A stretch of 64,000 nucleotides of DNA from Comamonadaceae bacterium. Its GTDB lineage: Bacteria > Pseudomonadota > Gammaproteobacteria > Burkholderiales > Burkholderiaceae_C. Location: positions 1 to 64,000 of the forward strand of contig JAIXOZ010000078.1 of assembly GCA_027486495.1 (NCBI GenBank). The letters are read 5' to 3'. Below, piece after piece: positions 1-39,285 of the stretch (position 1 is the first letter of the stretch; each line of letters opens with the position of its first letter). A program made the translations under genes and the position numbers. Below the pieces are notes generated by a model that was not told where the DNA came from, did no database searches, and was given only the letters and a program-made list of their open reading frames with translations.

Positions 1-591
1 GTGACCGACCGCGGCTTCATCAACGTCGACATTCAAATGCGCACCAACGTGCCGCACATCTTTGCCATTGGCGACATCGTGGGCCAGCCCATGTTGGCGC
101 ACAAGGCGGTGCACGAAGCACACGTGGCGGCCGAAGTCATTGCGGGCGAACTGCAAGGCAACAAAGAGCTGGCAGCCGCTGCGTTCAACGCACGCGTCAT
201 CCCAAGCGTGGCCTACACCGACCCCGAAGTGGCCTGGGTGGGCTTGACCTAGACCGAAGCCAAAGCGCAAGGCATTAAGGTGAAAAAGGGCTTGTTCCCT
301 TGGTCGGCTTCAGGCCGCGCCATTGCCAACGGCCGCGACGAAGGCGTGACCAAACTGCTGTTTGACGATTCACCCGAGGCCCACGGCCACGGCAAGATCT
401 TGGGCGGCGGCATGGTGGGCACGCATGCGGGCGACATGATTGGCGAGATCGCTCTGGCCATCGAGATGGGCGCAGACGCTGTGGACATCGGCAAAACCAT
501 CCACCCACACCCCACGCTGGGCGAAAGCATCGGCATGGCGGCAGAGGTGGCGCACGGCAGCTGCACGGACTTGCCGCCTGGCAAGAAGTAA
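1..591 (+). pseudogene. lpdA: Dihydrolipoamide dehydrogenase C-terminal part, 5' end outside window, interrupted by in-frame TAG at 250-252
   Basis: [47 protein letters not shown]...[51 protein letters not shown]...DIGKTIHPHPTLGESIGMAAEVAHGSCTDLPPGKK; same frame on both sides of the TAG. Confidence 0.85.
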
Positions 592-613
592 ACCGAACTG
601 AAACCAAAATTCA

Positions 614-643
614 AAAGCCCGATCCGGTCACGGATCGGGCTTT
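614..643. terminator. Rho-independent-type hairpin downstream of lpdA
   Basis: AAAGCCCGATCCG-GTCA-CGGATCGGGCTTT perfect stem. Confidence 0.8.
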
Positions 644-837
644 GAACTTTGCGCGTTCGAACCACCGCTGCCGTTGCAGGACGAGCCTTCCAGCAACGGC
701 GCGGGCTCACTTGGGGTCAGTAAGCTTTTCCCAACCCAAGCTGAGTTGACCCAGCCGGTGCCCCAAGGTAGAAGGCGCACTACAGGTGGGTGATCTTGAG
801 CGCACAGCCTTGCCAGTTTGGCATTTTTGGGGTGTGC

Positions 838-2001
838 TCAGACCCGCCACAAATTGTCGAGGGGCTGTGCTGCGCCAGGAAGCACAGTGTTCAACGCACC
901 CGCGCTCAATTGAAATTGCCTTTGCACAATTGGCATGATGAGCGAGCGAATATCCTGGGTTGGCCGCAAGTCCCGACCGTCCAGCAATTGGTGGCGTCCC
1001 AACCCCGGCCAATCGGTGAGGACTTGGCCGCCAGCGACTTGTCCACCTGCGACAAAAGCCACACCTCCCGTGCCGTGGTCAGTGCCTTGGCTGCCGTTCA
1101 TGGAAGCGGAACGGCCAAACTCAGTCATCACCAAGACCGTGGTGGTGGCCCAATGCACCGAGAGCGATTCACGCAAACCTGCCAGTGCTTCGTCCAATGC
1201 AGGCAGCAACCGGCCCAGGCGAGCTGTTTGTTGGCTGTGTGTGTCCCATCCACCCACTTCCAGCCAAGCGACGCGCGGGCCACGAGGTGCGGACAAGAAG
1301 GCACCTGCCTGTTTGGCCAAAACGGTCAAGCCTGCACCCGTTGAAGGTTCCGCACCCATGGACATGTCTTGCTGCTCCATGGCTTGGGCCAAGGCGCTTG
1401 CCAAAGGGACATCGTCGGCGTACATGGCTGCAATGCGGTTGAGTGTGTCTTGAGATTTGTTGGGCCTGCGGCTGGGGGTCCAGGTATTGGCGCGGTCAGC
1501 GCCACGCAGGGCCAAGGGCATGGCAGGTGTCATGGCCACCGCTGAATGCTGCGTCGCTTGCAGGGCGCGCGCCAGCCAACCGGTGCTGAGCACAAAGGGC
1601 CGTTCGCCGCCACTTTCAAGTTGCTGCTGGGCGTCGAAATGTGACCGTTCACGGTAAGGGCTGGCCACGGCATGCACAACGGCCATTTCTTTGTTCAGAT
1701 ACCAACGGTGCAAATGGGCCAAGCCGGGGTGCATGCCAAAGGTGCTGTCCAAGGGCAGCGCCGTGGGCGTTTCTGTACCGCCGCGCAAGGCCGCCCAGGC
1801 GGGGTCACCCAGTGCAGGCACTGCAGATAAGCCGTCCAAAGCCCCCCTGAGCAGTACCACCACCAAGCGCTGCTGCGACGGATTGTTCTCAGCTTGGGCA
1901 GCCAAAGCAAGTCGCGCAGGCAACAGGCCTGATACTGTGATTCCAGCCCCCAGGGCCAGTTGTTTCAGATGTTCGCGGCGCGAAAATGATGAACTTGTCA
2001 T
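838..2001 (-). CDS. DUF1501 domain-containing protein (Tat-like N-terminus)
   Basis: 387 aa; SRREHLKQLALGAGITVSGLLPARLA leader, LVVVLLRGALDGLSAVPALGDP, VLVMTEFGRSASMNGSQGTDHGTGG. Confidence 0.88.
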   Translation of the reverse strand: MTSSSFSRREHLKQLALGAGITVSGLLPARLALAAQAENNPSQQRLVVVLLRGALDGLSAVPALGDPAWAALRGGTETPTALPLDSTFGMHPGLAHLHRWYLNKEMAVVHAVASPYRERSHFDAQQQLESGGERPFVLSTGWLARALQATQHSAVAMTPAMPLALRGADRANTWTPSRRPNKSQDTLNRIAAMYADDVPLASALAQAMEQQDMSMGAEPSTGAGLTVLAKQAGAFLSAPRGPRVAWLEVGGWDTHSQQTARLGRLLPALDEALAGLRESLSVHWATTTVLVMTEFGRSASMNGSQGTDHGTGGVAFVAGGQVAGGQVLTDWPGLGRHQLLDGRDLRPTQDIRSLIMPIVQRQFQLSAGALNTVLPGAAQPLDNLWRV

Positions 2002-2005
2002 AGGC

Positions 2006-3361
2006 TTATCTCCGCATCAGTTCTGGGCTGGCCAATGCAAACGCCAGCGCTTGTGCGCCACTTTCGGCACGGGCGATGGTTTGAGCGGTGCTGGTGCTCA
2101 AGTTGGGGCCGAACGCTTGTTGCATCAAGTCTCTTGCATCAATGTCTTTGCCGTACAAATCGCCATAACGTTCAGCCCATTGAATCCGCTTGATGACAGC
2201 ATCTGGCGAGAGCCAATCCGCACTCAAGTCGGGCCAGCCCTGGGGTGAAGGTGAACGCGCCATGGCTTGACCCATGGTTTGCACCCAATACGCAGAATTT
2301 TCGACGTTGATGACTTTCTGTTGCATGAGGCGATGGGCTGAGATCAAGCATTCTTCGGGGCGCTTGAATTTGGGAGGAAGATCTTCTTGCCATGCCAAAT
2401 CATGGCTGAACAAGGCCACAGCCACAGCTTTGAGGTCGCCATCGGTGCGGCGAAATTGCGCGGCAACGGCTTGGACCAGCGCTGCTGGCGGCGCATCGGT
2501 GACAAAGTGACGGCACAGCTTGCTGGCCATGAAATCAGCGCATGCGGGGTGCCTGGCCAGGTCGGTGAGCAGCAGATCCAGCGCTTGTGGGCCTTCAGGA
2601 TAGGTGTTGCCCAAAATGGTTTTTTTGCCCGGTTGGTGCAGGTTGTCCATGAACCGCGTCACACCCGCGGTATTGGGGCCCACGGTCCAGCCGGTTAACA
2701 ATTTGGCGGTTTGGGTCACATCGTCTTGGGTATAGCCCGCCTTGACCCCCAAGGTGTGCAATTCGAGCAGCTCTCGGGCCAGGTTTTCGTTCAGACCCCT
2801 GTCGCGTCGGCGCCCCGCCATGGATTGCGGGCCGATTGATTGCGCATTGTCCAAATAGAGCAGCATGGCGGGATGCACGATGGCGGCGCGCAACAGCGCT
2901 TTGTAAGAGCCCCATGCATGCGGGCGAATGGCTTCATATTCGTGCGGCCAGACCAAAGCCAAGGTGGTTCCTTTGGTTGCGGCCACACAAAAATGATTGG
3001 CCCAAAACTGCACCCAGCGCTCTGCCACAGGCGTCGTGGTTTGCGTCATGTGTTGCCATCGTTTGCCCAGCCCATACAGATTGGTTTGGCGAAGCACCTG
3101 CCGCGCCGAGGTCATGGGACCCAAGACGTCTTGCGGCGGGTTGGTGTTGGTTGGTGTGCTTGGGCTGATTGCTGATTGCACAGCATCTCGCGAAATTTGC
3201 CAAGCTTTCGCACTGTCGACCAGCCCTTCTGAGTCAAACGAGGCGGGGCGCTCTAACTGCGCCAAGACCCAAGACCTGGGGTCATTGCCGAGGGTTTGCA
3301 GCTGGGGCTGCGAATAACCAAATCGATGGGATGCCAGATGGGTTGCTGAATACATGGTCAA
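2006..3361 (-). CDS. DUF1800 family protein
   Basis: 451 aa; ATHLASHRFGYSQPQL, RWVQFWANHFCV, GLNENLARELLELHTLGVKAGYTQDDVTQTAKLLTGW; adjacent to DUF1501 as is typical. Confidence 0.88.
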   Translation of the reverse strand: MTMYSATHLASHRFGYSQPQLQTLGNDPRSWVLAQLERPASFDSEGLVDSAKAWQISRDAVQSAISPSTPTNTNPPQDVLGPMTSARQVLRQTNLYGLGKRWQHMTQTTTPVAERWVQFWANHFCVAATKGTTLALVWPHEYEAIRPHAWGSYKALLRAAIVHPAMLLYLDNAQSIGPQSMAGRRRDRGLNENLARELLELHTLGVKAGYTQDDVTQTAKLLTGWTVGPNTAGVTRFMDNLHQPGKKTILGNTYPEGPQALDLLLTDLARHPACADFMASKLCRHFVTDAPPAALVQAVAAQFRRTDGDLKAVAVALFSHDLAWQEDLPPKFKRPEECLISAHRLMQQKVINVENSAYWVQTMGQAMARSPSPQGWPDLSADWLSPDAVIKRIQWAERYGDLYGKDIDARDLMQQAFGPNLSTSTAQTIARAESGAQALAFALASPELMRR

Positions 3362-3539: not shown

Positions 3540-3950
3540 CCTCGGCGTTCAACGCAGGCGCCATCCCCAGCGTGGGCTACACCGACCCCGAGGTGCCATG
3601 CGTGGGCTTGACCGAAGACCGAAGCCAGTGCGCAAGTCATCAAGGTAAAAGGGCTTGTTGCTTTGGTCCGACTCGGGCCGTGCCATTTTCAGAGGCCGCG
3701 ACGAAGGCGTGACCGAACTGCTGTTTGACGACAGCCCCGAAGCGCATGGTCACGGCAAGATCTTGGGCGGCGGCATGGTGGGCACGCACGCGGGCGAAAT
3801 GATTGGCGAGATTGCTTTTGCCATCGAGTTGGGCGCAGACGCGGTGGACATCGGCAAAACCATCCACCCCCCAAGCTGGGCGAAAGCGTTGGCATGGCGG
3901 AGGAGGTGGCGCATGGTCATTGCACCGACTTGCCGCCGGCGCGGAAGTAG
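3540..3950 (+). pseudogene. lpdA 3' fragment (frameshifted)
   Basis: FNAGAIPSVGYTDPEVPCVGLTE / SDSGRAIFRGRDEGVTELLFDDSPEAHGHGKILGGGMVGTHAGEMIGEIAFAIELGADAVDIGKTIHP; several frameshifts. Confidence 0.85.
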
Positions 3951-5868: not shown

Positions 5869-5878
5869 AGGGGTGACC

Positions 5879-24926: not shown

Positions 24927-24969
24927 ATGGTTTTCCGGGGGGGTGAATTGTCAAATTTTGGACAGACGG
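24927..24969. promoter_or_regulatory. Candidate operator copy B: CATGGTTTTCC-N11-TTGTC-N7-GGACAGACG
   Basis: Same elements as at 23064-23107, upstream of ThDP decarboxylase genes. Confidence 0.55.
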
Positions 24970-25021
24970 CCCGCCTTGGCGAGGCGGACACTGAAGTCTT
25001 TCTTCATTCATAGACTGCACC

Positions 25022-25561
25022 ATGTCCAGTGTCAAGCTGTCAGATTTTTCCATTCCGGCCTCTGCCTGTGTTGAGGCTATGGCTCGCAACCGGGTGGACC
25101 ATGTGGTCACGGTGCCCGACTGGGTGCAATTGGCCTTGCACCAACGGCTCGAAGAGGGCTTGACAGGGGTCAGGCTGGTGGGCTGCAGCAGTGAAAACCA
25201 AGTGGTGACTGTAGGAGCAGGCTTGGCCTTGGGCGGCAAGCGCCCCTTGCTGATGATGCAAAACCAAGGTTTGTACAACTGCATCAACACGCTTCGCGCG
25301 GTGAGCCTGGATGCACAAATGCCCTTGGTCTTCATGGTCGGTCAGTTTGGGCGGGAATACGCCAACCTGGGGCAGCCCAGTACGGCGTCCCGGCGGACCA
25401 TGGTGCGGATCATGGAGCCTTTGCTCAACGCGATCAACGTGCCTTTTTTATGCCTGGACTCGGAGGCTGACTTGGTCCGAATGGACGAGGCCTATGCCTT
25501 GGCCCATGCGCGGCGCACCGCGGTGGTGTTGCTGGTGTCCGCCCCCATGGCTTGGAGATAA
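25022..25561 (+). CDS. ThDP-binding decarboxylase, PYR-domain subunit (sulfopyruvate/phosphonopyruvate decarboxylase alpha-like)
   Basis: 179 aa; VDHVVTVPDWVQLALHQRL...CSSENQVVTVGAGLALGGKRPLLMMQNQGLYNCINTL. Confidence 0.78.
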   Translation: MSSVKLSDFSIPASACVEAMARNRVDHVVTVPDWVQLALHQRLEEGLTGVRLVGCSSENQVVTVGAGLALGGKRPLLMMQNQGLYNCINTLRAVSLDAQMPLVFMVGQFGREYANLGQPSTASRRTMVRIMEPLLNAINVPFLCLDSEADLVRMDEAYALAHARRTAVVLLVSAPMAWR

Positions 25562-25566
25562 ACCAT

Positions 25567-26199
25567 ATGATGAATTTGATTGAAGCTTGTGCCGTGGTCG
25601 CTAAGCAACGCCCCAGCGACTCTTTGTTGGTGGCCACCATGGGCGCCATGTTTGCCTTTGACCGCATCGACATGGAGGCCACGGGCGGCGACGCCAGCCG
25701 ACGACCTCCTGGGCGCATCAGCTCGGTGCCCCTGATGGGTGGCGCTGCCGGTCTGGGCCTGGGTTTGGCATTGGCCATGCCGCAGCGGTCTGTGGTGGTG
25801 GTGGATGGTGATGCAAGTCTGCTGCTTGAGCTTGGCGGGCTGGTGACTGTTGCCAATGCGCGACCAGATCATTTTTTGCATGTCGTCATCCGCAATGGCA
25901 CACAGTTCTCAGGGCTGGGAAATCTGGCCACCTTGCAACCCAGCTTGTCGTTTGCGGGCTTGGCAAAAGAAGCGGGCTACACGCATACCGAAGTGATCGA
26001 CAGTGCCCAGACATGGGCCATGCGTTTTACTGAGTTGTTAAGCCAGTCTGGCCCGACCTTTGTAGAGCTGATGGTTGAGCAGGTGCCACCTCGCACGGGC
26101 TCCGGTTTTGAATTGCCAGAGATGCCTGATTTGCAGTTTTCAAGGATGGGCTTGGAACTGACGGCGCTGCAACAGTGGCTGGGTACAACAACGCCATGA
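25567..26199 (+). CDS. ThDP-binding decarboxylase, PP-domain subunit (sulfopyruvate decarboxylase beta-like)
   Basis: MGGAAGLGLGLALAMPQRSVVVVDGDASLLLELGGLVTVANARPDHFLHVVIRNGTQFSG. Confidence 0.8.
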   Translation: MMNLIEACAVVAKQRPSDSLLVATMGAMFAFDRIDMEATGGDASRRPPGRISSVPLMGGAAGLGLGLALAMPQRSVVVVDGDASLLLELGGLVTVANARPDHFLHVVIRNGTQFSGLGNLATLQPSLSFAGLAKEAGYTHTEVIDSAQTWAMRFTELLSQSGPTFVELMVEQVPPRTGSGFELPEMPDLQFSRMGLELTALQQWLGTTTP

Positions 26200-27827
26200 G
26201 TACGCCCAGCTACGACTATGTGGTGGTTGGTGCGGGCTCATCGGGTGCCGCTTTAGCCCATCGCTTGGCTGAACAGCCCGACACCACTGTGCTGCTGCTC
26301 GAGGCAGGCGGCGCTCACCACAACGATTTTTGGGTCCGCACCCCATTGGGCATTGGTCGACTGCTCCAAAACCCCAAGTATGTCTGGCCGTTTTTTACCG
26401 AGCCTCAAGAGCAGGTCAACAACCAAAAGGTGTATTGGCCCCGCGGCAAGATGCCTGGGGGCTCGAGTTCGATCAACGGCATGATTTATGTGCGCGGCGA
26501 TCCACGCGAGTATGACCATTGGCGTGACCTGGGGTGCGCCGGCTGGGGCTATCAGGATTTGTTGCCGTATTTCAAAAAACTCGAATCCGCGTCCATGGGA
26601 GACACCGCTTACCGTGGACGGGAGGGGCCGATCAAGATCACTTCGTTGGCACAGGACCCGCAGCCGCTGGGAGATGCGTTTCATGAGGGGTGTTTGCAAG
26701 CGGGCATTGCCGCCAATCCCGACTACAACGGTGCCCGTTATGAGGGAGTGGGTTATTTGCAGTTGTCCACCCACCAAGGCCAGCGAAGCAGCACAGCGCG
26801 GGCTTATCTGGACGGGTTCACCCCGCCTCGTCTTACCCTGCAAGTGCAGGCTCAAGCCACATCCGTGATTTGGGATGGAACACGGGCGGTGGGGATTCGC
26901 TACCTGCACAATGGCCAATCGCTGCAAGTGATGGCCCGACGTGAAGTCATTCTCAGTGCCGGGCCCATTGTGAGTCCACAGTTGCTGGAACTGTCTGGCG
27001 TTGGTCAGGCCAATCGTTTGCGTGAGCTGGGTGTGGAGGTCAAAGCCGATGTGCCCGGTGTGGGGGAAAACTTGTGTGACCACTTGCAGGGGCGCATCAC
27101 TTTTGAATGCACTCAGCGCATCAGCCTGAACGAAATTGTGGGCAATCCGATCCGCCAAGCCTGGATGGGTGCTCATTATTTGCTGACGCGGCGGGGCATG
27201 ATGGCCACGCCGTCGGCGACGGTGCATGCGCTGGTTCCGGCGCACCCCACCGAACAGCGCGCGACGGTGAAGATCCAAATGACGCACCTGAGTGCCAACA
27301 GCCGCTACACACGCGGCCCAGGTTCCGGGCTTGACCGCTTCCCGGGTTTTTCGATCGGGTTTTTTCAACTGCGCCCACGCTCGCGTGGCCATGTGCATGC
27401 GCATTCCCCAGATGCCTTAAAAGCGCCGTTGATGGACCCCCGCTATTTGCAACACCCCGAAGATCAAGAAGACATGGTGCGTGCTTTTCGCGTGGCACGC
27501 CAGGTCTCGAGCCAACCCGCGCTGCAGGGCTTGATCCGGCGTGAAACTCGCCCCGGACTGGATGTGCAAAACGATGCGGCGGTGTTGGACTACATCCGTC
27601 AGTGTGGTCAAACCTCTTGGCACCCCATCGGCACTTGCAAGATGGGTACCGATGACATGGCCGTGGTCGACCCGCTGTTGCGGGTTAAAGGGGTACAGGC
27701 TTTGCGGGTGATTGATTCGTCGATCATGCCGACGATGCCCTCGTCCAATACCAACGCCGCCTCGATTGCCATCGGTGAAAAAGGTGCCGATTGCATTCTT
27801 CAACATCCCTTTAAGGTCAACGCATGA
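26196..27827 (+). CDS. GMC family oxidoreductase (choline dehydrogenase-like)
   Basis: YDYVVVGAGSSGAALAHRLAEQPDTTVLLLEAGG; GKMPGGSSSINGMIYVRGDPREYDHW; SWHPIGTCKMG. Confidence 0.95.
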   Translation: MSTPSYDYVVVGAGSSGAALAHRLAEQPDTTVLLLEAGGAHHNDFWVRTPLGIGRLLQNPKYVWPFFTEPQEQVNNQKVYWPRGKMPGGSSSINGMIYVRGDPREYDHWRDLGCAGWGYQDLLPYFKKLESASMGDTAYRGREGPIKITSLAQDPQPLGDAFHEGCLQAGIAANPDYNGARYEGVGYLQLSTHQGQRSSTARAYLDGFTPPRLTLQVQAQATSVIWDGTRAVGIRYLHNGQSLQVMARREVILSAGPIVSPQLLELSGVGQANRLRELGVEVKADVPGVGENLCDHLQGRITFECTQRISLNEIVGNPIRQAWMGAHYLLTRRGMMATPSATVHALVPAHPTEQRATVKIQMTHLSANSRYTRGPGSGLDRFPGFSIGFFQLRPRSRGHVHAHSPDALKAPLMDPRYLQHPEDQEDMVRAFRVARQVSSQPALQGLIRRETRPGLDVQNDAAVLDYIRQCGQTSWHPIGTCKMGTDDMAVVDPLLRVKGVQALRVIDSSIMPTMPSSNTNAASIAIGEKGADCILQHPFKVNA

Positions 27828-30127
27828 AGTACTCATGGCAGGCGCCCGCCAACCCCGCCGAAGGGTATCAGGGCACCATTGGTAAAACCCTCAAAGACTC
27901 CAAGCCGTGGTGGCGTGACCCTACACGCGCACCGCAGAGCGCCCCCAATGTGGTGGTGATCTTGTTGGACGACCTGGGGTTTTCGGACTTTGGCTGCTTT
28001 GGTGGCGAAATTGCCACGCCCCACATTGACGCCTTGGCCGGTGCGGGATTGCGTTTTACCGGTTACACCACGGTGCCGATGTGCACGCCCGCCCGTGCGG
28101 CCTTGCTGACGGGCAAAAATCCGCATGCGGTTGGATGTGGGTGGCTGACCCATAACAACCCGGGCTATCCGGGTTACCAAGCGGGTGAGATTTCACCCGA
28201 CGCGCCCACCATGCCCGAGCTGTTGCGCGGCCTGGGCTACTCGACCTATGGCGCTGGAAAGTGGCACAACACGGCCGACTATCACATCGGTTCAGGCAGC
28301 GACCGCCAGGCTTGGCCGTTGCAACGCGGGTTTGACCGTTTTTATGGTTTTTTGGGTTCCGAGACCCATTTCTTCTCGCCGCACCACCTGATCGACGGCA
28401 ACGAGTTTTTGAGCATCGACGCTTACGCACCCGACCATTACGCCACGCGGGACTGGACCGATCGTTCCATTCAATACTTGCGAGGCCATCAAAGCAGCAC
28501 GCCCGATAAGCCATTTTTTCTGTACCTGGCCCACAACGCACCCCACGTACCGTTGCAAGCACCGGCAGAAAACATTGGCCGTTATGCTGGTGTTTACGAC
28601 CAGGGTTGGGACCATCAGCGCGAACTTCGCTTTGCACGCCAGCGTGCCATGGGCTTGATCGGGCCAGACTGGCGTTTGTCACAAGCCAATCCTGGTGTGC
28701 CGCGTTGGGACGATGTCCCCGAGGCGAAGCGGCCTTTGATGGCGCATTACATGCAGGTCTATGCCGCGATGGTTGAGCTGGTCGACCAAGAGGTGGGGCG
28801 TCTGGTGGCCGAACTCAAAGCCCTTGGTGTTTACGACAACACCTTGATTGTTCTGACCTCAGACAACGGCGCCAATTCGATTGGCGGACCAGAGGGAACC
28901 GTGAACACCATGGAAAAAAGAGTGGCCCGTGCCACCGACGAGGAAATGGCGCACAAAGCCCAGCAAGCCTATGAGCAGGGCGTGGTGGGCGGCTCCGAGA
29001 CCTTTGTCGCCTACCCGGTGGGCTGGGCCAATTGCTCCAACACGCCATTTCGTTTTTATAAGCGCACCCCCATGAACGGCGGTATTCGTGTGCCCTTTAT
29101 CCTCAGCCACCCACGCAGCGTGAAAGATGCGGGGGCGGTAAGGACCCAGTGGATCCATGTCACCGACACCTTGCCCACTGTGCTGGAGATGATTGGTGCA
29201 AGCTACCCGCAAAGCTTCAATGGGCACGCAACGCGGGGTTTGGATGGCAGCAGCTATCTTGGCCTGCTCACGCAGGCTCAGGCGCCAACCCAACGCACGC
29301 GCCAACATTTCGAGCTGGAGGGCAATCGGGGCATGATCATGTACCCTTGGAAAGTGGTGTCCTTGCAACCCTTGGGCAAGGCCATTGAGTTGGACAACTG
29401 GCTGCTTTTTGACCTCGAAACTGATCCGACCGAATGTGACAATTTGGCGCTGCGCCACCCCGATATGCTGCAGCAGTTGATCGCAGAATTTGATCTTGAT
29501 GCCGCAAGCAACCAGGTCTATCCCCTGGACAACCGCGACTTGCGAAAAACGCTGGCGGTACCGCCCTTCTTGGAGAAAAAGTTTTCTGCAGCCTTGCATT
29601 TCTATCCTGGGGTGGAGACGATTCCGCTACAAAACTTTGCGCCCTTGATGGCAGACAGGGATTACTGCTTGGAAGCCCATTTCACCTGGCAGCCTGGCGT
29701 TGAGGGTGTGATCTTTTCCATCGGCGACAACATGGGCGGTGTGTGCGTGTTTGTCCAGGCCGATCATGTTGTTGCAGCATTTGTTGGGACGCGGGGCGCC
29801 GAGCGGCAATGCCGTTTGCGGCTGACCCCCGGCGCGCAGCAGCTTCGACTTGAGCACCGTGCCCTGGGTCAGCGCGAAGGGCTTGGGCAGTTGGTACTCA
29901 ATGGTGTGATGGCCGCTGACACCTTGGCCATGACGCCGACGTTTTTGAGACTGGTTGGTGAAGGCATTGATGTCGGTTTGGATCGCCGGCGCAAGGTCAG
30001 CTCCGACTGTGAGGGCCGTGGCGTGTACCGGTATGGGGCGCACATTGACCGTGTCTCCCTCACGCCAGGCCCGCAAGCGCCGGGCAGTTTGGCGAATGTT
30101 CCCGAGGCCATTGCGCAATGGGATTGA
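27824..30127 (+). CDS. Type I sulfatase / arylsulfatase
   Basis: 767 aa; NVVVILLDDLGFSDFGCFGGEIATPHIDALA; formylglycine motif CTPARAALLTG; GAGKWH. Confidence 0.94.
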   Translation: MKYSWQAPANPAEGYQGTIGKTLKDSKPWWRDPTRAPQSAPNVVVILLDDLGFSDFGCFGGEIATPHIDALAGAGLRFTGYTTVPMCTPARAALLTGKNPHAVGCGWLTHNNPGYPGYQAGEISPDAPTMPELLRGLGYSTYGAGKWHNTADYHIGSGSDRQAWPLQRGFDRFYGFLGSETHFFSPHHLIDGNEFLSIDAYAPDHYATRDWTDRSIQYLRGHQSSTPDKPFFLYLAHNAPHVPLQAPAENIGRYAGVYDQGWDHQRELRFARQRAMGLIGPDWRLSQANPGVPRWDDVPEAKRPLMAHYMQVYAAMVELVDQEVGRLVAELKALGVYDNTLIVLTSDNGANSIGGPEGTVNTMEKRVARATDEEMAHKAQQAYEQGVVGGSETFVAYPVGWANCSNTPFRFYKRTPMNGGIRVPFILSHPRSVKDAGAVRTQWIHVTDTLPTVLEMIGASYPQSFNGHATRGLDGSSYLGLLTQAQAPTQRTRQHFELEGNRGMIMYPWKVVSLQPLGKAIELDNWLLFDLETDPTECDNLALRHPDMLQQLIAEFDLDAASNQVYPLDNRDLRKTLAVPPFLEKKFSAALHFYPGVETIPLQNFAPLMADRDYCLEAHFTWQPGVEGVIFSIGDNMGGVCVFVQADHVVAAFVGTRGAERQCRLRLTPGAQQLRLEHRALGQREGLGQLVLNGVMAADTLAMTPTFLRLVGEGIDVGLDRRRKVSSDCEGRGVYRYGAHIDRVSLTPGPQAPGSLANVPEAIAQWD

Positions 30128-30159
30128 TGGGGTTGGGTATCTATTTTTAAGGAGCACAC

Positions 30160-31134
30160 ATGAGCAGTTTTATATCGAGACGTCAGCTGTTGGGTGGTTT
30201 TGCGATGACATCGGCCTTGCCCGGTTCGCTGTGGGCTCAAACCGCGTGGCCGACCCGGCCAGTGAAGGTGGTTGTCCCTTATCCAGCCGGCGGCTCACCC
30301 GATCTGTTTGCCCGCGTCGTGGCCAGAGAGTTGAGCAACATTTATGCGCAACCTTTTAACATCGACAACAAACCTGGGGCTGCAGCCTTGATCGGCGCAC
30401 GGGCAGTTTCACAAAATCCCAATGAGATCCACGCCTTGGCTTACATCACCTCAGGCCATGTCACGTTGCAGGCAATGGACCCTTCATTTAATTTGCTGAA
30501 GGAATTCAAATTGGTCAGCCGGATGAGCAATTCGCCCTACGTCTGCGTCGTCAATGCCAAGTCGCCCTACAAGACCATGGCGGATTTGGTTGCGGCGGCC
30601 AAAGCCAATCCCGGTAAATTGACCTATGGCTCGGCGGGCATCGGGTCACCCGCTCACATGGCGGTGGAGTACCTTGAAGAAAGCCTACCGTCCTTCAAAG
30701 CCTTGCATATCCCCTACAAAGGTGCGGTCGAATCTGCGAATGCGATTTTGGGCGGGCAGATTGATTTCAGCATCATGGTTCTGGGTACTGCGGTGCCGCA
30801 TCTCAAAGGCGGACAGTTGCGAGCCCTGGCGGTGACGACCAGCAAATCGGTGCAACCGATTCCAGACGTGCCGACGATCGGCGATACCGTGGCACCCGGC
30901 TATGTGTTTGGTGCCTGGGGTGGTTTTGCCATGCCCACCGGAACGCCAGATGATGTCATTGCACGTCTGTACAAATCATTGGTAACAGTTTCCACATCTG
31001 CGACGCTGATCGAAGAGACCAAGCGCACCGGCTCGATCATCGGCATGAATGAAAGCCCCAAAGAGTTTGCCGAACAAATCGCCCGCGATGTAGCCACTGA
31101 GACGGTGATTGTGAAAAAACTCAACTTGAAGTAA
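30160..31134 (+). CDS. Tripartite tricarboxylate transporter substrate-binding protein (Bug family)
   Basis: RPVKVVVPYPAGGSPDLFARVVARELS; NKPGAAALIGARAV. Confidence 0.92.
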   Translation: MSSFISRRQLLGGFAMTSALPGSLWAQTAWPTRPVKVVVPYPAGGSPDLFARVVARELSNIYAQPFNIDNKPGAAALIGARAVSQNPNEIHALAYITSGHVTLQAMDPSFNLLKEFKLVSRMSNSPYVCVVNAKSPYKTMADLVAAAKANPGKLTYGSAGIGSPAHMAVEYLEESLPSFKALHIPYKGAVESANAILGGQIDFSIMVLGTAVPHLKGGQLRALAVTTSKSVQPIPDVPTIGDTVAPGYVFGAWGGFAMPTGTPDDVIARLYKSLVTVSTSATLIEETKRTGSIIGMNESPKEFAEQIARDVATETVIVKKLNLK

Positions 31135-31161
31135 CGGCAGCCACGCTTTAATTCGCAAAAA

Positions 31162-32367
31162 ATGACTGCAATCATGGGCATCGACCACAAAGAAAACCCG
31201 CCGACCCGCGCAGACGAGGTACTTCAGTTGACGCGGCACTTGGCGCAGCAGTGGGTTCGTCCACAAGCGCAGCGCTGGCAGCGTGAACGCGTGATGGGGC
31301 TGGAGGTGGTGCAAGAAGCTGCTCGCCTGAATCTGCTGGGTGTTCAGGTGCCCGTTGAGCAAGGCGGGCTCGGTTTGCCCTTCAGCGTCAAGTCGGGCAT
31401 GGCGGCGATCCTGGCCGAAGCAGATTTTGGTTTTGCCTTGTCATTGATCAACACCCAGGGGGTCGCCTCCACGCTGGCCAACTGGCTGCCGGCGGCGGTC
31501 TCACAGCGTTGGCTGGGCGATTTGTTGAGTGGACAGCGCATCGGTTGCACCTGCTTGACCGAGCCTGGGGCAGGCTCAGATTTTGGCGCCATTCAGATGC
31601 AAGCTACCCCCCATGGCTCGGGTTGGCGCCTGCAGGGTGAAAAGGCCTGGATCATCAATGCGCAGGTGGCCGAGGTGATGGTGGTGTATGCACAAACCCA
31701 GCCGGGAATCGGCGCCAAGGGTATCGCCGCGTTTGTCGTGGATGCGTCGCGACCGGGCTTTCTTCGCACCGATCGCGGGCGCACCGAGACTGTGGCCTCA
31801 CTCGGTACGGGTGGCTTTGTGCTGGATGGCTATGAAGCGCGCGCCGACGAAATGCTGCACCCGCCTGGCATGGCCTTCAAACGCGCCATGGGTTCCATCA
31901 ACATGGCGCGCACCTATGTGGCGGCTATGGCGACGGCCATGGTGGTGGACAGCTTGCGCATCGCCCGTGCTTATGGTGAGCAGCGTCACACCTTTGGCCG
32001 TGCCTTGCAGGAGCACCAGGGTTGGCGTTGGGTGCTGGCAGATGCCATGGTTGATGTCGAGGCGGCGCAGTTGCTGATCGAGCAGGCCTGTGCTGCAGCG
32101 GATGCTCAAGCGCCCATGGAGGCATTGGCTGCACGCGCCAAAATTTTCTCCACCCGCATGGCGAGTAAACATATTGCCAGTTTGTTGCATGCACTGGGTG
32201 CGGCCGGCCTCAGCGCGCAATACCCCTTGAGCCGCCATTTGGCAGGTGCTCAGGTGGCCACGCTGGTAGACGGCTCCACAGAAATGTTGCTTGAACGGGT
32301 TTGGGCCAGCCAAGTTGGCTCCACGACGCCCCCGAAACACGCCATTCAGCAGGAGATATTGAATTGA
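31162..32367 (+). CDS. Acyl-CoA dehydrogenase family protein
   Basis: 401 aa; CTCLTEPGAGSDFGAIQMQA; GEKAWIINAQVAEVMVVYAQT; YGEQRHTFGRALQEHQG. Confidence 0.93.
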   Translation: MTAIMGIDHKENPPTRADEVLQLTRHLAQQWVRPQAQRWQRERVMGLEVVQEAARLNLLGVQVPVEQGGLGLPFSVKSGMAAILAEADFGFALSLINTQGVASTLANWLPAAVSQRWLGDLLSGQRIGCTCLTEPGAGSDFGAIQMQATPHGSGWRLQGEKAWIINAQVAEVMVVYAQTQPGIGAKGIAAFVVDASRPGFLRTDRGRTETVASLGTGGFVLDGYEARADEMLHPPGMAFKRAMGSINMARTYVAAMATAMVVDSLRIARAYGEQRHTFGRALQEHQGWRWVLADAMVDVEAAQLLIEQACAAADAQAPMEALAARAKIFSTRMASKHIASLLHALGAAGLSAQYPLSRHLAGAQVATLVDGSTEMLLERVWASQVGSTTPPKHAIQQEILN

Positions 32368-33446
32368 AAGCCGCTGTTTTTCATGGCCCAGGTCAGCCGA
32401 TGACCATCGAGCATGTCGAAATAAACAAGCCCAAGCGCAATGAGGTGCTGGTGCGAACCCGCGTGAGCGGGCTATGTCACAGTGACCTGCATTTTATGGA
32501 GGGCAAGTACCCCACACCTGTGCCCGCCGTGCTGGGCCATGAAGCTGCCGGGGTGGTTGAAGAGGTGGGTGAAGACGTCACCCACGTCAAGCCAGGTGAC
32601 CATGTGATCACCTGTCTGTCGGTGTTCTGTGGCCACTGCGAGTTCTGCGTGACTGGCCACCAGACCATTTGCAGCAACACCGCCATCAAGATGCCGCCAG
32701 GCAAGGCCAAACGTTTGCGCTGGAAGGGTGAGCACCTGAACCAATTCCTGAACCTGTCGTCCTTTGCAGAGCAGATGCTGGTGCATGAAAACGCTGTGGT
32801 CAAAATCCGCGAAGACATGCCGCTGGACTTGGCCGCACTGCTCGGTTGTGGTGTGCTCACCGGTTACGGCTCGGTGGTGCACAGCGCTCGCTTGGAGCCT
32901 GGCACCATTGTGGCCGTGCTCGGCTGCGGAGGCGTGGGTCTTTCCACCATCCATGCTGCGCACCTGGCGGGCGCGGCCCGCATCATCGCCATTGACATTG
33001 ATGCCAACAAGTTGCAAATGGCCAAGATCTTCGGCGCCACCGATAACATGGATGCCAAAGATCCCGACATGGTTGCCAAAATCATCGAGATGACCCAAGG
33101 CGGCGTGCACTAGGCATTCGAGTGCATTGGACTCAAACCCACCACCGAAGCCTCTTTCGCCATGCTGCGTCCTCGAGGTTTATCCACCATTGTGGGCATG
33201 ATTCCCCCGGGTACCAAGATCGAACTGAACGGGCCCGACTTTTTGCGTGAACGACGCATTCAGGGAACGATGATGGGCTCTAACCATTTTCGTCTCGATA
33301 TCCCCCGCCTGGTGGAATTCCACATGCAAGGTCGCATGAAGCTTGACGAGCTGGTCTCGAATCGGCTCAAGCTGGACCAGATCAACGACGGTTTTTCTGC
33401 TTTGCAGCGCGGCGGAATCGCCAGGAATGTGGTGGTCTTTGACTAA
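32364..33446 (+). pseudogene. Zn-dependent alcohol dehydrogenase interrupted by single in-frame TAG at 33111-33113 (TTG start)
   Basis: LKAAVFHGPGQPMTIEHVEINKPKRNEVLVRTRVSGLCHSDLHFMEGKYP...TQGGVH*AFECIGLKPTTEASFAMLRPRGLSTIVG; same frame on both sides. Confidence 0.85.
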
Positions 33447-33476
33447 CTTGGCGATGCCCAAGTCGCCCTAGCTGCC

Positions 33477-34901
33477 TTAACTGGGCAAGGCCCGCCAGTG
33501 CACCGATTTTTGCGTGGTGATTTCATGTAAAAACTCCATGCCATAGCCGTGACCCAAGCCACTGGATTTGACGGGCTCAGAACTTCCCCCCGGCGCCTTG
33601 CCACGTAGCGTGTTGATCTTGACCATGCCAGCGCGCAAGGAGTGAATGGCGCGCAGCGCACGCGGCGCCGAAGTGGTCATCACCATTGAAGCCAGGCCAA
33701 AGCGTGTGCGGTTGGCCATGTCGATGGCCTCTTCAAAATCATCAAAAGCGATGCAGGGAGCGACCGGGCCGAACGTCTCTTCCGTCATCAAGCGACCGTT
33801 GGGGTCTGGATGGCTGATGACGGTGGGCGGAAAGAAAAAGCCTTTTCCTGGCATTCGTGCGCCCCCATGGTGCAAGCTTGCGCCTGCGGCAAGGGCTTCT
33901 TGGACCTGCAGCGAGACAATACTCAGCTGGTTGTGGTCGACCAAAGGGCCCATCTGAATGCCATCCGTCAATCCGTTTCCTTGTCGGATGGCCCGTGCCT
34001 GTTGTGTCAGCGCATTGACAAACTCAGGGAATATTTTTCGCGCGACATACAGCCGTTCGGTTGAGGTGCAGATCTGCCCGGCATTTGAAAATGCCGCCTC
34101 TGCAGCCAGGCGGGCCGCAGAGGCGACATCGACGGTTTCATCAACGATGAGTGCGTCTTTGCCGCCCAACTCCAAAATGGCTTTCTTCAAGCTTTGACCG
34201 CAAATGGCGCCCAAGTGCCGACCAGTCGGCTCACTTCCAACAAAGACCAGCAAGTCCACCTGCGGGTGTCGCACCAAGGCTTCGCCCACAGTTGGACCGT
34301 CCCCCAGCATCACATTGACAACACCAGCGGGTAAGTGGTCAAAGATGCGCTCGACAATCAGACGTGAGGTCAATGGGGTTTTTTCTGAGGGCTTCCAAAC
34401 CACCGTATTGCCCACTAGCAAATTGGGCACCACATTGTCGAGGCCCAGTGCCACAGGAAAATTCCACGGCATGACGCAGGCGCAAACCCCTCGCGCAAAT
34501 CTTTGTTGAAAATTGAGCTCTAGATCAGCGGCCATCTGTTGACCACTTCGCAGATGGATCACCATTTCTGCATACGAGCGCATGCCCTCTATGGCTTTGT
34601 TGACCTCATTCAGCGAATGCGACAAAGGTTTGCCCATTTCACGGGTGAGCAAATGGGCCACTTCGTTGCGAATCTGAGTCAGCCGGTCAATGGCCGTCAC
34701 GATCAGCTGACGGCGCTGCGTGGGCGATCGTGCGGCCCAAGGTTCAAATGCGCGGCGGGCGGCTGCAACGGCAGCCTCGACATCGTTGGCATGTCCTCGC
34801 GGGATGGTGTCAATCAGCTCTTCCGTGGCAGGGTCCAGAATATCAAGGGCGTCGCCCGAACCCGGGTATGCCCGGTTGTCGATCCAGTGGGTTTGCATCA
34901 A
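33477..34901 (-). CDS. NAD(P)-dependent aldehyde dehydrogenase (succinate-semialdehyde dehydrogenase-like)
   Basis: 474 aa; VCACVMPWNFPVALGLDNVVP; LELGGKDALIVDETVD; NAGQICTSTERLYV. Confidence 0.93.
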   Translation of the reverse strand: MMQTHWIDNRAYPGSGDALDILDPATEELIDTIPRGHANDVEAAVAAARRAFEPWAARSPTQRRQLIVTAIDRLTQIRNEVAHLLTREMGKPLSHSLNEVNKAIEGMRSYAEMVIHLRSGQQMAADLELNFQQRFARGVCACVMPWNFPVALGLDNVVPNLLVGNTVVWKPSEKTPLTSRLIVERIFDHLPAGVVNVMLGDGPTVGEALVRHPQVDLLVFVGSEPTGRHLGAICGQSLKKAILELGGKDALIVDETVDVASAARLAAEAAFSNAGQICTSTERLYVARKIFPEFVNALTQQARAIRQGNGLTDGIQMGPLVDHNQLSIVSLQVQEALAAGASLHHGGARMPGKGFFFPPTVISHPDPNGRLMTEETFGPVAPCIAFDDFEEAIDMANRTRFGLASMVMTTSAPRALRAIHSLRAGMVKINTLRGKAPGGSSEPVKSSGLGHGYGMEFLHEITTQKSVHWRALPS

Positions 34902-35947
34902 ATGTCTTTCTGGCGCTGCGGCGCTTCAATATGGCGGGAGTCTGGAGTCGACTGGCTCAATGCATCACAAAAGCCGAACAGGCCGGCTTGACCACCGGTA
35001 TGAATGAACACGATGTTCTCGTTGGCTCGGTAATGCCCGCGCCGGATCCAGTCCATCAAACCGGCCATGGCTTTGCCGGTGTAGACCGGGTCGAGCAAGA
35101 TGCCCTCCAGCCGTGCCACCTGTTGAACAGCTTCCACCATGGCAGGTGTGGGAATGCTGTAACCCTTGCCCAGGTAGTCGGCATTCACCCGTATGGCTTC
35201 TGGTGGTATCTCAGGGATGTCTCCGATCCATTGCGCAGTGGCTAAAGCCAGCGCCGAGACCCTGGCGTGTTGAAGATGTGCGGCTTGGCTGACAGCAAAC
35301 CCTTGCACACCCACTGAGCTGTTTTGTGCGGCCACGCCCACCACCAGACCCGCTTGCGTGCCCGCGCTGCCGCTGGCCAGCACGATGTGATCCAGGTGTA
35401 AAGATTTTTCCCGAGCTTGATTTAGCAGCTCTTGAGCGGCCAAGACATAGCCAAGGGTGCCCACCGGATTGGAGCCGCCACTGGGAATCAGGTAGGGGCG
35501 CTGCCCCTTGGCGCGCAGCGCATCGCCAACTTGGGTCAGTGCGGCAGGCATGTCGGTGCCGCCTGGAAGGTGGACGATCTCAGCCCCGAGCAAGCCGTCG
35601 AGCAGCACATTGCCGTTGTGCAAATAGGCCTCGTCCGGATTCGGATGTCGGTGTTCCAGCAGGACGGTACAAGCCAGCCCGAGCCGCGCAGCTGCAGCGG
35701 CAGTTTGGCGGACATGGTTGGATTGAAGCGCGCCCAGCGTGACCAGATGGTTCGCCCCATGCTGAAGGGCGTCACCCAATAAAAACGCCAGTTTGCGTGC
35801 CTTGTTGCCACCCAGCGCCATGCCGGTACAGTCATCGCGCTTGATCCACAGTTGTGGTCCACCCAGGTGCTGTGTCAGTCGGGGCATGAATTCCAAGGGC
35901 GTAGGGGCATGGCACAGGTCGACTCTTGGGAAACGCTCGAGGTTCAT
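34898..35947 (-). CDS. PLP-dependent D-cysteine desulfhydrase / ACC deaminase / L-cysteate sulfo-lyase (CuyA) family
   Basis: 349 aa; LWIKRDDCTGMALGGNKARKLAFLL; LQSNHVRQTAAAAARLGL; IPSGGSNPVGTLGYV; LASGSAGTQAGLV; EGILLDPVYTGKAMAGLM. Confidence 0.9.
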   Translation of the reverse strand: MNLERFPRVDLCHAPTPLEFMPRLTQHLGGPQLWIKRDDCTGMALGGNKARKLAFLLGDALQHGANHLVTLGALQSNHVRQTAAAAARLGLACTVLLEHRHPNPDEAYLHNGNVLLDGLLGAEIVHLPGGTDMPAALTQVGDALRAKGQRPYLIPSGGSNPVGTLGYVLAAQELLNQAREKSLHLDHIVLASGSAGTQAGLVVGVAAQNSSVGVQGFAVSQAAHLQHARVSALALATAQWIGDIPEIPPEAIRVNADYLGKGYSIPTPAMVEAVQQVARLEGILLDPVYTGKAMAGLMDWIRRGHYRANENIVFIHTGGQAGLFGFCDALSQSTPDSRHIEAPQRQKDI

Positions 35948-37443
35948 CGTGCGACACCCGACACAGCGTCCAGACTGGCCCAGGCTTCCTCTGCCGACAC
36001 GCCGGGCGGTGGCGTAAAGGCAATAAACGCTTCTTCACCGACAGCTTTTTGGCCGCCATAAGCGTCGGCCTTGGCCCGCTGCGCGGCTTTGGCCCGGTCG
36101 TCTTGCAACTGTGGGTCACAGATGGACAGCAGCACCGGCATGAGGCGTCGCTCGATGGCGTCGCCTTGCGCAGTACCGTGCAAATCGTGCAGTTCATCGG
36201 GGTCAGCACAAAGATCAAACGTCTGGGTGGGCATGCCCACATGGACGATCATTTTGTCGTCGCGCAGCCGGACCAAATAGGCTGCTGAGCGCGAGCCCTG
36301 CGCATGGTATTCGGCAAACACGGGACGCTCCAGGTCGTCCTGTCCTCGTGCCGCCGGCAACAGCGATACGCCTGGCAGATCGGCGTCAGCCGGTTGCGCT
36401 TGCGCGCCTGTCATGTCAAGGAGTGTCGGAAATAGATCCACATGCGAGACCAGTTGCTGTGAAACATGATCGGCTTGAATACCCGGTCCTGCCAGAATCA
36501 GTGGCACCCCGACTGCACCCTCAAACATCGATCGTTTGCCGAACAGGCCTTGCGCGCCAAACAACTCGCCATGGTCGCTGGTGTACATCAAGCGGGTGGC
36601 CTCGTATATTTGAAGAGACATCATCTCTTGGAGTACGACGCCGATCTGCTCGTCCATGTGCGTGATCAAACCAAAATAGCTCGCAGCGATACGTTGCAGT
36701 ACAGCCGGGTCGAGTTCAGGCGGCATGCCGTCGAGTTGGCGCGCGAACTCGACAGACGGATGAAAAGCCGTGGCCTTCATGTCAGGCGGTAGAGGCATGT
36801 CCTGCTGTGGGTACATGTCCAAAAAACGTTTGGCCACGGTAAATGGCGGATGGGGGCTGATGTAAGACACGATCAGTACCGATGTTTTGTTCTCTGTGGG
36901 TTCATGCTCCCGTAGCCAGGCCACGGCCTGCTCGGTAATTTGACGGTCGTAGTCTTGGTAATGGGTGTCACCTTCTTTGGACAAATCGTCATACAAACCC
37001 ATCATCACGCCGGGCTCTTTGGGTTTTTGTGCATCGAAGCCACGCAACAGTCCTTTGAGAGCGCCTTTGCCTTCATGCAAGTGCATGGGCAATATTTCTT
37101 TGTTGAACCCGTTGTCGTCGTCGCCGCTGCGGTAATGCAATTTGCCGATGGCTGTCACATGGTGCCCCTGTTCGCGCAGGCGATGCATCCAACTGGAGAT
37201 GGCACCGTCATAGGCCATGACATTGTCCCAATAGCCGGTTTGGTGCGGGTAGCGGCCGGTCGCCATGGCTGCCCGCGCCGGGCAGCAAAGGGGACTGGTG
37301 CTGTAGGCATTGGCAAAACGCGTTCCACGCTTGGCGATGGCGTTGATGTTCGGTGTGTGTACGACCGGGTGCCCGTAGCAGCCGACCACTGACCGGTTGT
37401 GGTTGTCAGCGACGAAGATCACAAGGCGTTGGTGTGCGGGCAT
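35944..37443 (-). CDS. Type I sulfatase
   Basis: 499 aa; VVHTPNINAIAKRGTRFANAYSTSPLCCPARAAMATGRYPHQTG; AIGKLHY. Confidence 0.94.
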   Translation of the reverse strand: MPAHQRLVIFVADNHNRSVVGCYGHPVVHTPNINAIAKRGTRFANAYSTSPLCCPARAAMATGRYPHQTGYWDNVMAYDGAISSWMHRLREQGHHVTAIGKLHYRSGDDDNGFNKEILPMHLHEGKGALKGLLRGFDAQKPKEPGVMMGLYDDLSKEGDTHYQDYDRQITEQAVAWLREHEPTENKTSVLIVSYISPHPPFTVAKRFLDMYPQQDMPLPPDMKATAFHPSVEFARQLDGMPPELDPAVLQRIAASYFGLITHMDEQIGVVLQEMMSLQIYEATRLMYTSDHGELFGAQGLFGKRSMFEGAVGVPLILAGPGIQADHVSQQLVSHVDLFPTLLDMTGAQAQPADADLPGVSLLPAARGQDDLERPVFAEYHAQGSRSAAYLVRLRDDKMIVHVGMPTQTFDLCADPDELHDLHGTAQGDAIERRLMPVLLSICDPQLQDDRAKAAQRAKADAYGGQKAVGEEAFIAFTPPPGVSAEEAWASLDAVSGVAR

Positions 37444-37464
37444 CTGAGGCTCCTGGTATATAGA

Positions 37465-37500
37465 TTTGCTAAATTATGCTGGTTAACTAGCAAACCAGCA
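37465..37500. promoter_or_regulatory. Nested inverted repeats between divergent sulfatase and GntR genes
   Basis: TTTGCTA(37465)...TAGCAAA(37488) and TGCTGGTT-AACTAGCA-AACCAGCA (37477-37500). Confidence 0.6.
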
Positions 37501-37584
37501 ACATGACTGTTGCCATTGCGCCTTATCATGTGTTTTGTTTCACCTCACTTGCTCCCATAAAGTCAATTTCAGGAGCCTTTTGCC

Positions 37585-38325
37585 TTGACTGCTGCCCACA
37601 ACAAGTCGCCGCTTTATCACAGCATTGCTGGAGCCCTGCGGGCCCTGATTGCGAGTGGAGAGTTGAAAGTAGGGGCCCAATTGCCGACGATTGCTGCGAT
37701 GGCCAAACGCTATAACGTCGCGCCTGTCACCGTGCGTGAAGCACTCAGACTGCTGACCGAGGAAGGCTTGATTCGTGGTCGCCGTGGCAGTGGCACATTT
37801 GTCAACGAGGCGCCGCCGCGATTGACCTCACCTGTCACCGAAGCAGGGTGGCCCCAATTGCCGCATAACCTGCGCGAGCACCGAGGTCGAATTTTGGAAA
37901 CGGATGACGCACCGCCGCCGCTATTGCTGCATGAAGGCACTCTGGCGGCTGCCTATCGGCGGATGCGACGCGTGCATCTGGATGAGCGTTCAGAACCTTT
38001 TCGGGTAGTAGAGCTCTTTGTGGCTCGTCACTACTACGATCAAGCGCCCAGTCGATTCGACCAAGAGATGGTGTTGGTGGTGCTGGAGGAATTGGATGCG
38101 GTCAACTTGGTGGAAATGCGACAAAGCTTCAGCCTGACCATCGCCGACGCAGAGGTGGCGGCGCACCTGGGTGTACATGCTGGCGATCCTTTGGGGCGGC
38201 TCAGACGCTCGCTGGTAGATTCACGCGGTGTTGTGGTGTATTTTTCTATTGCGCTGATCCGTTCGGATCGGATCTCGCTGGCCTGGTCGATGCGCCGACC
38301 CGTGCCGCAAAACCCCAGCGCTTGA
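37585..38325 (+). CDS. GntR family (UTRA) transcriptional regulator
   Basis: 246 aa; LYHSIAGALRALIASGELKVGAQLPTIAAMAKRYNVAPVTVREALRLLTEEGLIRGRRGSGTFV. Confidence 0.93.
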   Translation: MTAAHNKSPLYHSIAGALRALIASGELKVGAQLPTIAAMAKRYNVAPVTVREALRLLTEEGLIRGRRGSGTFVNEAPPRLTSPVTEAGWPQLPHNLREHRGRILETDDAPPPLLLHEGTLAAAYRRMRRVHLDERSEPFRVVELFVARHYYDQAPSRFDQEMVLVVLEELDAVNLVEMRQSFSLTIADAEVAAHLGVHAGDPLGRLRRSLVDSRGVVVYFSIALIRSDRISLAWSMRRPVPQNPSA

Positions 38326-38371
38326 CCAATTTGCCGTTGGCCACGCCACAGGTGTATGGGGCTTGGTTTGT

Positions 38372-38518
38372 GCTGTGAACATCGGCAAAGCCATCCACCC
38401 ACACCCCGCGCTGTGCGGATGCATCGGCATGGCGGCTGCGGCGGTGGCGGTGGCGGTGGCGCTGGCGGTGGCGCTGGCGAACGGCTCTTGCTTGGACATG
38501 CCTCCAGCAAGCAACTAA
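38372..38518 (+). pseudogene. lpdA 3'-terminal fragment with hexanucleotide expansion
   Basis: AVNIGKAIHPHPALCGCIGMAAAAVAVAVALAVALANGSCLDMPPASN* versus AVDIGKTIHPHPTLGESIGMAAEVAHGSCTDLPPGKK* of 1..591. Confidence 0.8.
38439..38479 (+). repeat. GGCGGT/GGCGCT hexanucleotide microsatellite-like tract
   Basis: gcggtggcggtggcggtggcgctggcggtggcgctggcg. Confidence 0.75.
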
Positions 38519-38602
38519 AACCAAAAGCAGCTGAAGGGCTAAATAATTCAGCTGCTGAGCAGGGATACGCCCTGAAGTTGATGAGGACGAAGAGGGGTCA
38601 TT

Positions 38603-39043
38603 TCATATCCCGCGCTGTGTTGGCTCGGATAATTCTTTTTCCAAATCCCGCTGCAACCCGATCCATGCAGGGTCAAAACTGAGTTTTTTGGACAACGGGG
38701 TCCCGGGCTCCACGACACGCCAAAACGGTGGCAAATCGGCCAGCGGGACATTTCCCCCGTTGTGCTCCTGCCAAGCGTACTCCGCAACAATGCGCAAAAA
38801 AATGGAGGTCGATACGGGGCACGTGGCATCGCAGCTTTGTGCGAGGGCAATTTTTTGACGAAATTGCTGCAGAGATACCGTTTCACCTGGCCGAATTTTT
38901 CTGAGCTCATCGGCAATCTCTTGCGGGCTGGAAATGTGCAGTTTTGAGCCGCTTTTCACGCCTGCGAAGTCTTTTTCAAGAACGACATGGTGTGGCGGTT
39001 TGGTTGCCATTTTGTCTTTCCAAGTTTTTTTAGCTCTTGGCAT
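38603..39043 (-). CDS. Hypothetical protein, 146 aa (distant similarity to an alkyltransferase-like fold possible but unproven)
   Basis: Intact ORF; QEIADELRKIRPGETVSLQQFRQKIALAQSCDATCPVSTSIFLRIVAEYAWQE. Confidence 0.6.
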   Translation of the reverse strand: MPRAKKTWKDKMATKPPHHVVLEKDFAGVKSGSKLHISSPQEIADELRKIRPGETVSLQQFRQKIALAQSCDATCPVSTSIFLRIVAEYAWQEHNGGNVPLADLPPFWRVVEPGTPLSKKLSFDPAWIGLQRDLEKELSEPTQRGI

Positions 39044-39160
39044 GGTCAGTGAATGTGAAGTGTTGATGGTTTAATTTTCTTCTCTTGGCTGGATGATGCA
39101 AGTCATGCCAGTCAACCCCTATCCTTATTGGATAACCCTTTTTCTACTTTTGAAGGGTCA

Positions 39161-39285
39161 CACCGACCCCGAAGTGGCTTGGATGGGCTTGACCTAGACC
39201 CGATCTAAAGCGCAAGGGATCTAGGTGAAAAAGGGCTTGTTTTCTTGAACCGCCTGCGGCCGCGCCATGGCCAACGGGCGCAACA
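39161..39285 (+). pseudogene. lpdA internal fragment, multiple stops
   Basis: TDPEVAWMGLT*TRSKAQGI*VKKGLFS*TACGRAMANGRN. Confidence 0.75.

Follow-up and report, generated by a model that had tools for sequence, protein, structure and literature searches.

Why should pieces of a single gene recur, all in one direction, between the functional blocks of a bacterial chromosome? The question arises from a 64,000-nucleotide stretch of DNA (the window), which is the start of contig C154 in the 3.78-Mb draft genome of a freshwater Comamonadaceae bacterium from a genus containing Limnohabitans isolates (Limnohabitans-like). A preliminary description had reported five fragments of lpdA, the dihydrolipoamide dehydrogenase gene, on the + strand between such blocks, and had proposed the lpdA 3' end as a repeated landing site for incoming DNA. 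When a reconstructed 1830-bp lpdA was compared with the window by blastn, the five fragments were recovered between the functional blocks, every one of them on the + strand, with E-values of 0 to 4e-19 for the main pieces, far above chance.

Fragments of lpdA and the modules between them

The features of the locus are, in order:

1-591, + strand: lpdA fragment 1 (97%, blastn), 3' part of the gene, pseudogene
838-3361, - strand: module of DUF1501 (838-2001) and DUF1800 (2006-3361) genes (Pfam), located directly 3' of intact lpdA in L100/G045
3545-3950, + strand: lpdA fragment 2 (86% over 3545-3949, blastn), extending to the stop codon
4303-21400, strand not given: catabolic module 1 (Pfam)
21587-21629 and 21642-22134, + strand: lpdA fragment 3 (88% and 82%, blastn), internally deleted and lacking the 3' end
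22359-38325, strand not given: catabolic module 2 (Pfam)
38315-38367, + strand: 53-bp match to a section of the 301-aa neighbour gene (direct repeat D7; copy at 40078-40130, 91%), immediately 5' of fragment 4
38372-38518, + strand: lpdA fragment 4 (86% over 38372-38444, 73 bp aligned, blastn)
38603-39043, - strand: 146-aa gene without known domain, with relatives close behind lpdA in G005, G009 and L053
39160-39284, + strand: lpdA fragment 5 (84%, blastn), internal piece, the most distal
39952-40857, - strand: 301-aa gene, native lpdA neighbour (tblastn across loci; Pfam)
41095-41997, + strand: EamA gene, native lpdA neighbour (tblastn across loci; Pfam)
42033-42815, - strand: class II aldolase gene, native lpdA neighbour (tblastn across loci; Pfam)

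Fragment 1 continues upstream on contig C39, back to position -683 from the lpdA stop, and is a pseudogene because its reading frame contains an in-frame TAG at 250-252. Past 38444, fragment 4 was read by eye as an expanded short repeat and a degenerate tail up to a stop at 38518; the expanded repeat is of the GGTGGC type and occupies 38445-38490. By Pfam, module 1 encodes CoA-transferases, an SDR, a LysR regulator, a 3-hydroxyisobutyrate-type dehydrogenase, an NMT1-type ABC transporter, SMP-30, MR/MLE and an aldehyde dehydrogenase, and module 2 a Crp-type regulator, a split TPP enzyme, a GMC oxidoreductase, two sulfatases and TctC, together with an acyl-CoA dehydrogenase, an ADH, an aldehyde dehydrogenase, PALP and GntR. 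The TPP-dependent enzyme (25022-26199) is divided into N-terminal and C-terminal ORFs, possibly by a frameshift or as a two-subunit form.

The parent of the fragments is the pyruvate dehydrogenase lpdA of the operon aceE-aceF-lpdA, at the end of contig C100. The preliminary description had placed it beside odhB; the odhB-linked copy is rejected as parent. The window begins within fragment 1 and not in intact lpdA, whose 3' end lies on the 4,027-bp contig C39, followed there by the remains of an IS91-family transposase, a lipoprotein gene (867 aa, FG-GAP/Ig-like) and the 5' portion of fragment 1. Overlaps of 15 bp and 119 bp, the latter between C39 and the window start, suggest a contig path C100-C39-C154, whereas the other reading would place the TAG of fragment 1 inside the sole lpdA. 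Between intact lpdA and fragment 1 there is one module beyond those described previously, consisting of the IS91 remnant and the FG-GAP lipoprotein gene. The latter was rejected as recurrent cargo, as the weak nucleotide matches in relatives are to the IS91-like remnant and not to the FG-GAP gene.

Recurrence of lpdA tails and emptier sites in relatives

Sequence behind the gene was available at 109 lpdA loci, and 29 of these carried further pieces of lpdA downstream. All 65 downstream matches at the 109 loci lay on the same strand as lpdA, with none on the opposite strand, and their coverage of the gene was nil at the 5' end and climbed toward the 3' end. Twenty-eight pieces ended within 3 nt of the stop (<=3 nt), and their 5' ends were scattered from -39 to -1481, which fits a pattern of homologous anchor and random join. 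Chance or gene-family background was rejected by controls: the 3' ends of aceE and alaS nearly always occurred once, the few additional partial matches lying at contig ends or in paralogues, and the lpdA 5' end found the lipoyl domain of aceF, a long second copy in G012 and little else. Each insertion leaves an lpdA tail, as had been suspected, and the pattern is specific to the lpdA 3' end among the gene ends tested (aceE 3', alaS 3', lpdA 5'). It extends beyond the genus to Rhodoferax BP02 and OV413 and to the complete chromosome of Polaromonas P2-4, and the same architecture is found on a 2.58-Mb contig of G037. Identity against age along the stack gave a weak trend (rho -0.27, p 0.07), and identity was discarded as an age clock. 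A search for lpdA tails on phages gave two weak lpd matches only.

Two kinds of cargo were seen repeatedly in these islands. In G030, G005, G037, G062 and L054, a small cassette containing a helix-turn-helix (HigA-like) gene separates intact lpdA from an lpdA piece (first 0.8 kb); in G003 and G024 the cassette is found further down the stack. The other is a restriction-modification operon of type I, with HsdM and HsdR domains, which occupies 4262-13481 of L126 (G003) and is also present at the lpdA loci of G008 and G037.

The comparison of sites proposed in the preliminary description showed the native state in G041, where only 113 bp separate lpdA from the 301-aa gene, with EamA and the class II aldolase next, the same order as in the window from 39952 (tblastn). 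Because the 301-aa gene lies 113 bp from lpdA in G041 and at 39952 here, about 43 kb (window and C39 together) is inserted behind lpdA in this genome. In L100, intact lpdA is followed directly by the DUF1501-DUF1800 module and then by the 301-aa gene, the state expected prior to addition of the FG-GAP module and the catabolic modules. Pairs of filled and emptier sites comprise G000/L100, G021/G031 (98%), G043/G070 (95%) and G003 with five genomes (90-95%), and in four species (G003, G008, G012 and G015) one displaced tail and its flank stand behind four modules without detectable mutual sequence similarity. The order of cargo is shuffled: in G043 it is module 1 that shares a contig with lpdA, with DUF1501-DUF1800 coming later, so that the order is opposite to the one seen here (contigs C126 and C77 of G043 were joined on the basis of a shared module). 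Module 1 lies at the lpdA locus in G043 and, in G017, G049, G042 and G083, on contigs without a good lpdA match. The modules are not bound to lpdA, an outcome that by the preliminary description's own terms refutes its view for this cargo, though not for lpdA as a landing site. When donor and native alleles were compared (fragment 1 and the G043 fragment), a donor 3' end in intact lpdA was not seen. Taken together, DNA has been inserted at lpdA, old tails have been displaced, the orientation is single and emptier sites exist in relatives, so that the proposed role of the lpdA 3' end as a repeated landing site is borne out by the 29 loci and by the filled and emptier pairs.

An IS91-family element linked to lpdA

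The remnant on C39 matches IS91-family transposases and, in this genome, is C-terminal only. Of 80 named loci, 7 have pieces of IS91-like transposases behind lpdA, every time pointing the same way as the gene, and none was found upstream of lpdA in 693 kb from these 80 loci. In all tested copies that keep both ends, the transposase start codon lies exactly 108 bp past the lpdA stop, in G024, G008, G071, G003:C21 and L056 and in other genera (G123, G431, G388, G314, G301 and G237). The plasmid pADP-1 (NC_004956) contains three full ISPps1 copies with lpdA 108 bp ahead, where IS1071 cuts into this lpdA. The same arrangement is found on Paenarthrobacter pTC1 and on a Klebsiella plasmid, and 28 plasmid records hold most of the unit formed by lpdA (-570), leader and transposase start. 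The unit of lpdA, 108 bp and transposase is thus fixed in several genera and on plasmids. On catabolic plasmids the lpdA piece of ISPps1 is mostly unannotated, although some plasmid records do annotate an adjacent lpdA piece.

We take ISPps1 to be ISCR8, from the common host plasmid group rather than from sequence comparison. The preliminary description knew of no named element that behaves in this way at lpdA, yet a close one exists: in ISPps1, so equated, an lpdA tail stands 108 bp ahead of the transposase, on catabolic plasmids as well. The landing-site idea was right, and what is new about the element is its setting rather than its kind. In the literature outside subscription journals, we found no paper linking ISPps1 or ISCR8 to lpdA, or describing lpdA as an integration site.

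A related plasmid transposase (WP_011798713.1) matches PF04986 and PF14319, as expected of an HUH transposase with Zn_Tnp_IS91 and Y2_Tnp domains, and near-intact copies are present in G024 (82% identity) and G037 (77%). The oriIS GCGGTTGAATTTCCTATCC lies behind the transposase in G024, L092, L196 and the pADP-1 copies; it was not found in this genome at <=4 mismatches. In G024 this oriIS is joined directly to fragment 1 of that genome, its youngest lpdA piece, at the 5' end; this is the sole oriIS-lpdA junction found, and either a rolling-circle junction or an insertion into lpdA would give such a fusion. A LexA box (CTGT-N8-ACAG) precedes the transposase in G008, G024, G071:C61, pADP-1, G123, G237, G388, G314 and G301 and is absent before it in G003:C21 and L056; such a box has been reported for ISCR1, ISCR2 and ISCR8.

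In IS91 copies without lpdA, similarity to the lpdA-linked copies begins no earlier than about 30 bp ahead of the start codon, the LexA-type box included, and lpdA with its terminator therefore looks like captured flanking DNA. A left end of about 110 bp common to lpdA- and acnB-tailed copies was rejected as the terminus of the element and is read as an end of IS1071; in pADP-1 it is found in both orientations around the IS1071 transposase genes. In another IS91-like lineage (L205, L206 and L207, from G267, G225 and G175), the 3' tail of acnB (aconitase B) and a terminator stand before the transposase. Judging from this lineage, tail capture by IS91-like elements may be general.

Origin of the island

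In the explanation we favour, the region behind lpdA would have grown by addition, as an island formed through one recombination event after another at the lpdA 3' end. DNA arriving with an lpdA tail joined to cargo would recombine with the host lpdA. The host gene would remain whole, its 3' end replaced in part; the cargo would land behind it, and the old tail would be displaced downstream as a 5'-truncated fragment and then decay. The likely original source is an ISPps1/ISCR8-type rolling-circle element of the IS91 family, lying some 80 bp past lpdA and in the same orientation. One-ended transposition may carry the upstream lpdA tail along, giving units or circles of lpdA tail, IS and oriIS that might integrate by homology, as with ISCR1 at the integron 3'-CS; the signs of such one-ended rolling-circle transposition of the lpdA-linked element are structural hints in the sequence. 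One-ended IS91 transposition takes along flanking DNA beyond the ter end (PMC9676059), for ISCR1, circles have been proposed that return through homology to the segment they bring along and leave partial repeats (PMC13023784), and ISCR8 transposase expression is SOS-controlled (PMC13393415). Once repeats exist, later modules may spread by plain homologous recombination between lpdA copies, a route that must explain many borders because these are without IS traces and a piece of the neighbour gene stands before fragment 4. On balance we think it more likely than not that an ISPps1/ISCR8-type IS91 element seeded lpdA-tail DNA and that such DNA has entered lpdA time and again by recombination, in the manner of ISCR1 at the integron 3'-CS, and we infer a circular intermediate, RecA dependence and the IS as initiator of the process. 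Several observations count against a role of the IS: its remnant in this genome is at the newest module only; neither IS nor oriIS traces were found at most module borders, so that its role there is one we infer; the G024 junction could equally be an IS insertion into an old fragment; and cargo lies on the oriIS side, where simple one-ended read-through past the transposase start would not collect it. The allele comparison and the weakness of the age trend also speak against the favoured account.

An alternative, which we judge rather unlikely, requires no transposon: donor DNA, taken up for instance by natural transformation, would anchor in lpdA and join the recipient at random with its other end, through recombination that is either plainly homologous or illegitimate and homology-facilitated, with IS91 copies as frequent passengers of the island. 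The scattered 5' ends of the fragments and the lack of oriIS at most borders agree with it, the neighbour-gene piece adjoining fragment 4 fits it better, and the same geometry is seen in the Vibrio T6SS displacement model (PMC5361080). However, plain recombination predicts neither the single orientation of IS91, nor the constant 108-bp spacing across genera and plasmids, nor the oriIS-lpdA fusion in G024, and it offers no reason for lpdA over the other gene ends tested. Tyrosine-integrase islands using the lpdA 3' end as an attachment site, restored on entry, would likewise insert at a gene 3' end, restore the gene and displace its tails, but this account is largely refuted and very improbable: no integrase lies at the locus among the PF00589 matches listed for 36 genomes, which comprise all but the weakest, none is among the scanned cargo proteins of the window, and the 28 stop-reaching fragments begin over the range given above and not at one crossover position. 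Contigs of the draft genome do break at lpdA copies, as an assembly artefact or a local tandem duplication of lpdA might have it, yet the long G037 contig and the complete Polaromonas chromosome have the same architecture, the fragments have diverged and duplication brings no unrelated cargo, which makes this account scarcely credible.

A wider reading can be put forward tentatively, as a possibility: lpdA would be an integrase-free attachment site across Comamonadaceae, where an ISCR8-type element with an lpdA tail captured in this family gives circles that recombine into any lpdA and stack catabolic, toxin-antitoxin and restriction modules last-in-first-out, and ISPps1/ISCR8 on pesticide-degradation plasmids, as far as Actinomycetota, would be escapees of the chromosomal locus. 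The observations point to the lpdA locus of Comamonadaceae as the place from which ISPps1/ISCR8, associated with pesticide-degradation plasmids, is likely to have come. They suggest a route, specific enough to be tested, for adding entire catabolic modules to chromosomes without an integrase. In many genomes, a single site also retains a stack of earlier insertions that is preserved in part and ends at a native neighbour gene.

Comparison with known systems

The elements e14 and phage 21 at icd are integrase islands in the 3' end of a gene, in which the gene is restored and the old tail displaced. The lpdA locus resembles them in both respects and differs in that no integrase and no fixed crossover point were found. 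In complex class 1 integrons with ISCR1 and the 3'-CS (PMC13023784), the element is likewise fused behind a conserved segment at constant spacing, re-entry is proposed to occur by homology with this segment, and partial repeats of the anchor lie between cargo modules. At lpdA, by contrast, the anchor is a chromosomal housekeeping gene and not qacE-delta1/sul1, the cargo is catabolic, toxin-antitoxin or restriction, and many borders lost the IS or never had one; as to a class 1 integron proper (attC cassettes, qacE-delta1/sul1), the window annotation contains no integron or sulfonamide-resistance gene.

Sequential displacement at Vibrio T6SS and Rhs loci (PMC5361080) shares the conserved upstream anchor, the new module behind it and the old 3' ends pushed downstream. 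The lpdA island differs from these loci in that its anchor is a core metabolic gene, its cargo is unrelated to the anchor and an IS91 element is linked to the anchor. A further counterpart is ISPps1 (taken as ISCR8) on catabolic plasmids such as pADP-1 and pTC1, with the same transposase family, the same oriIS and the lpdA tail exactly 108 bp before the transposase start. On the plasmids, however, ISPps1 is spread as a unit and is often cut by IS1071, whereas at the native chromosomal lpdA the element or its remains are found together with stacked tails and modules.
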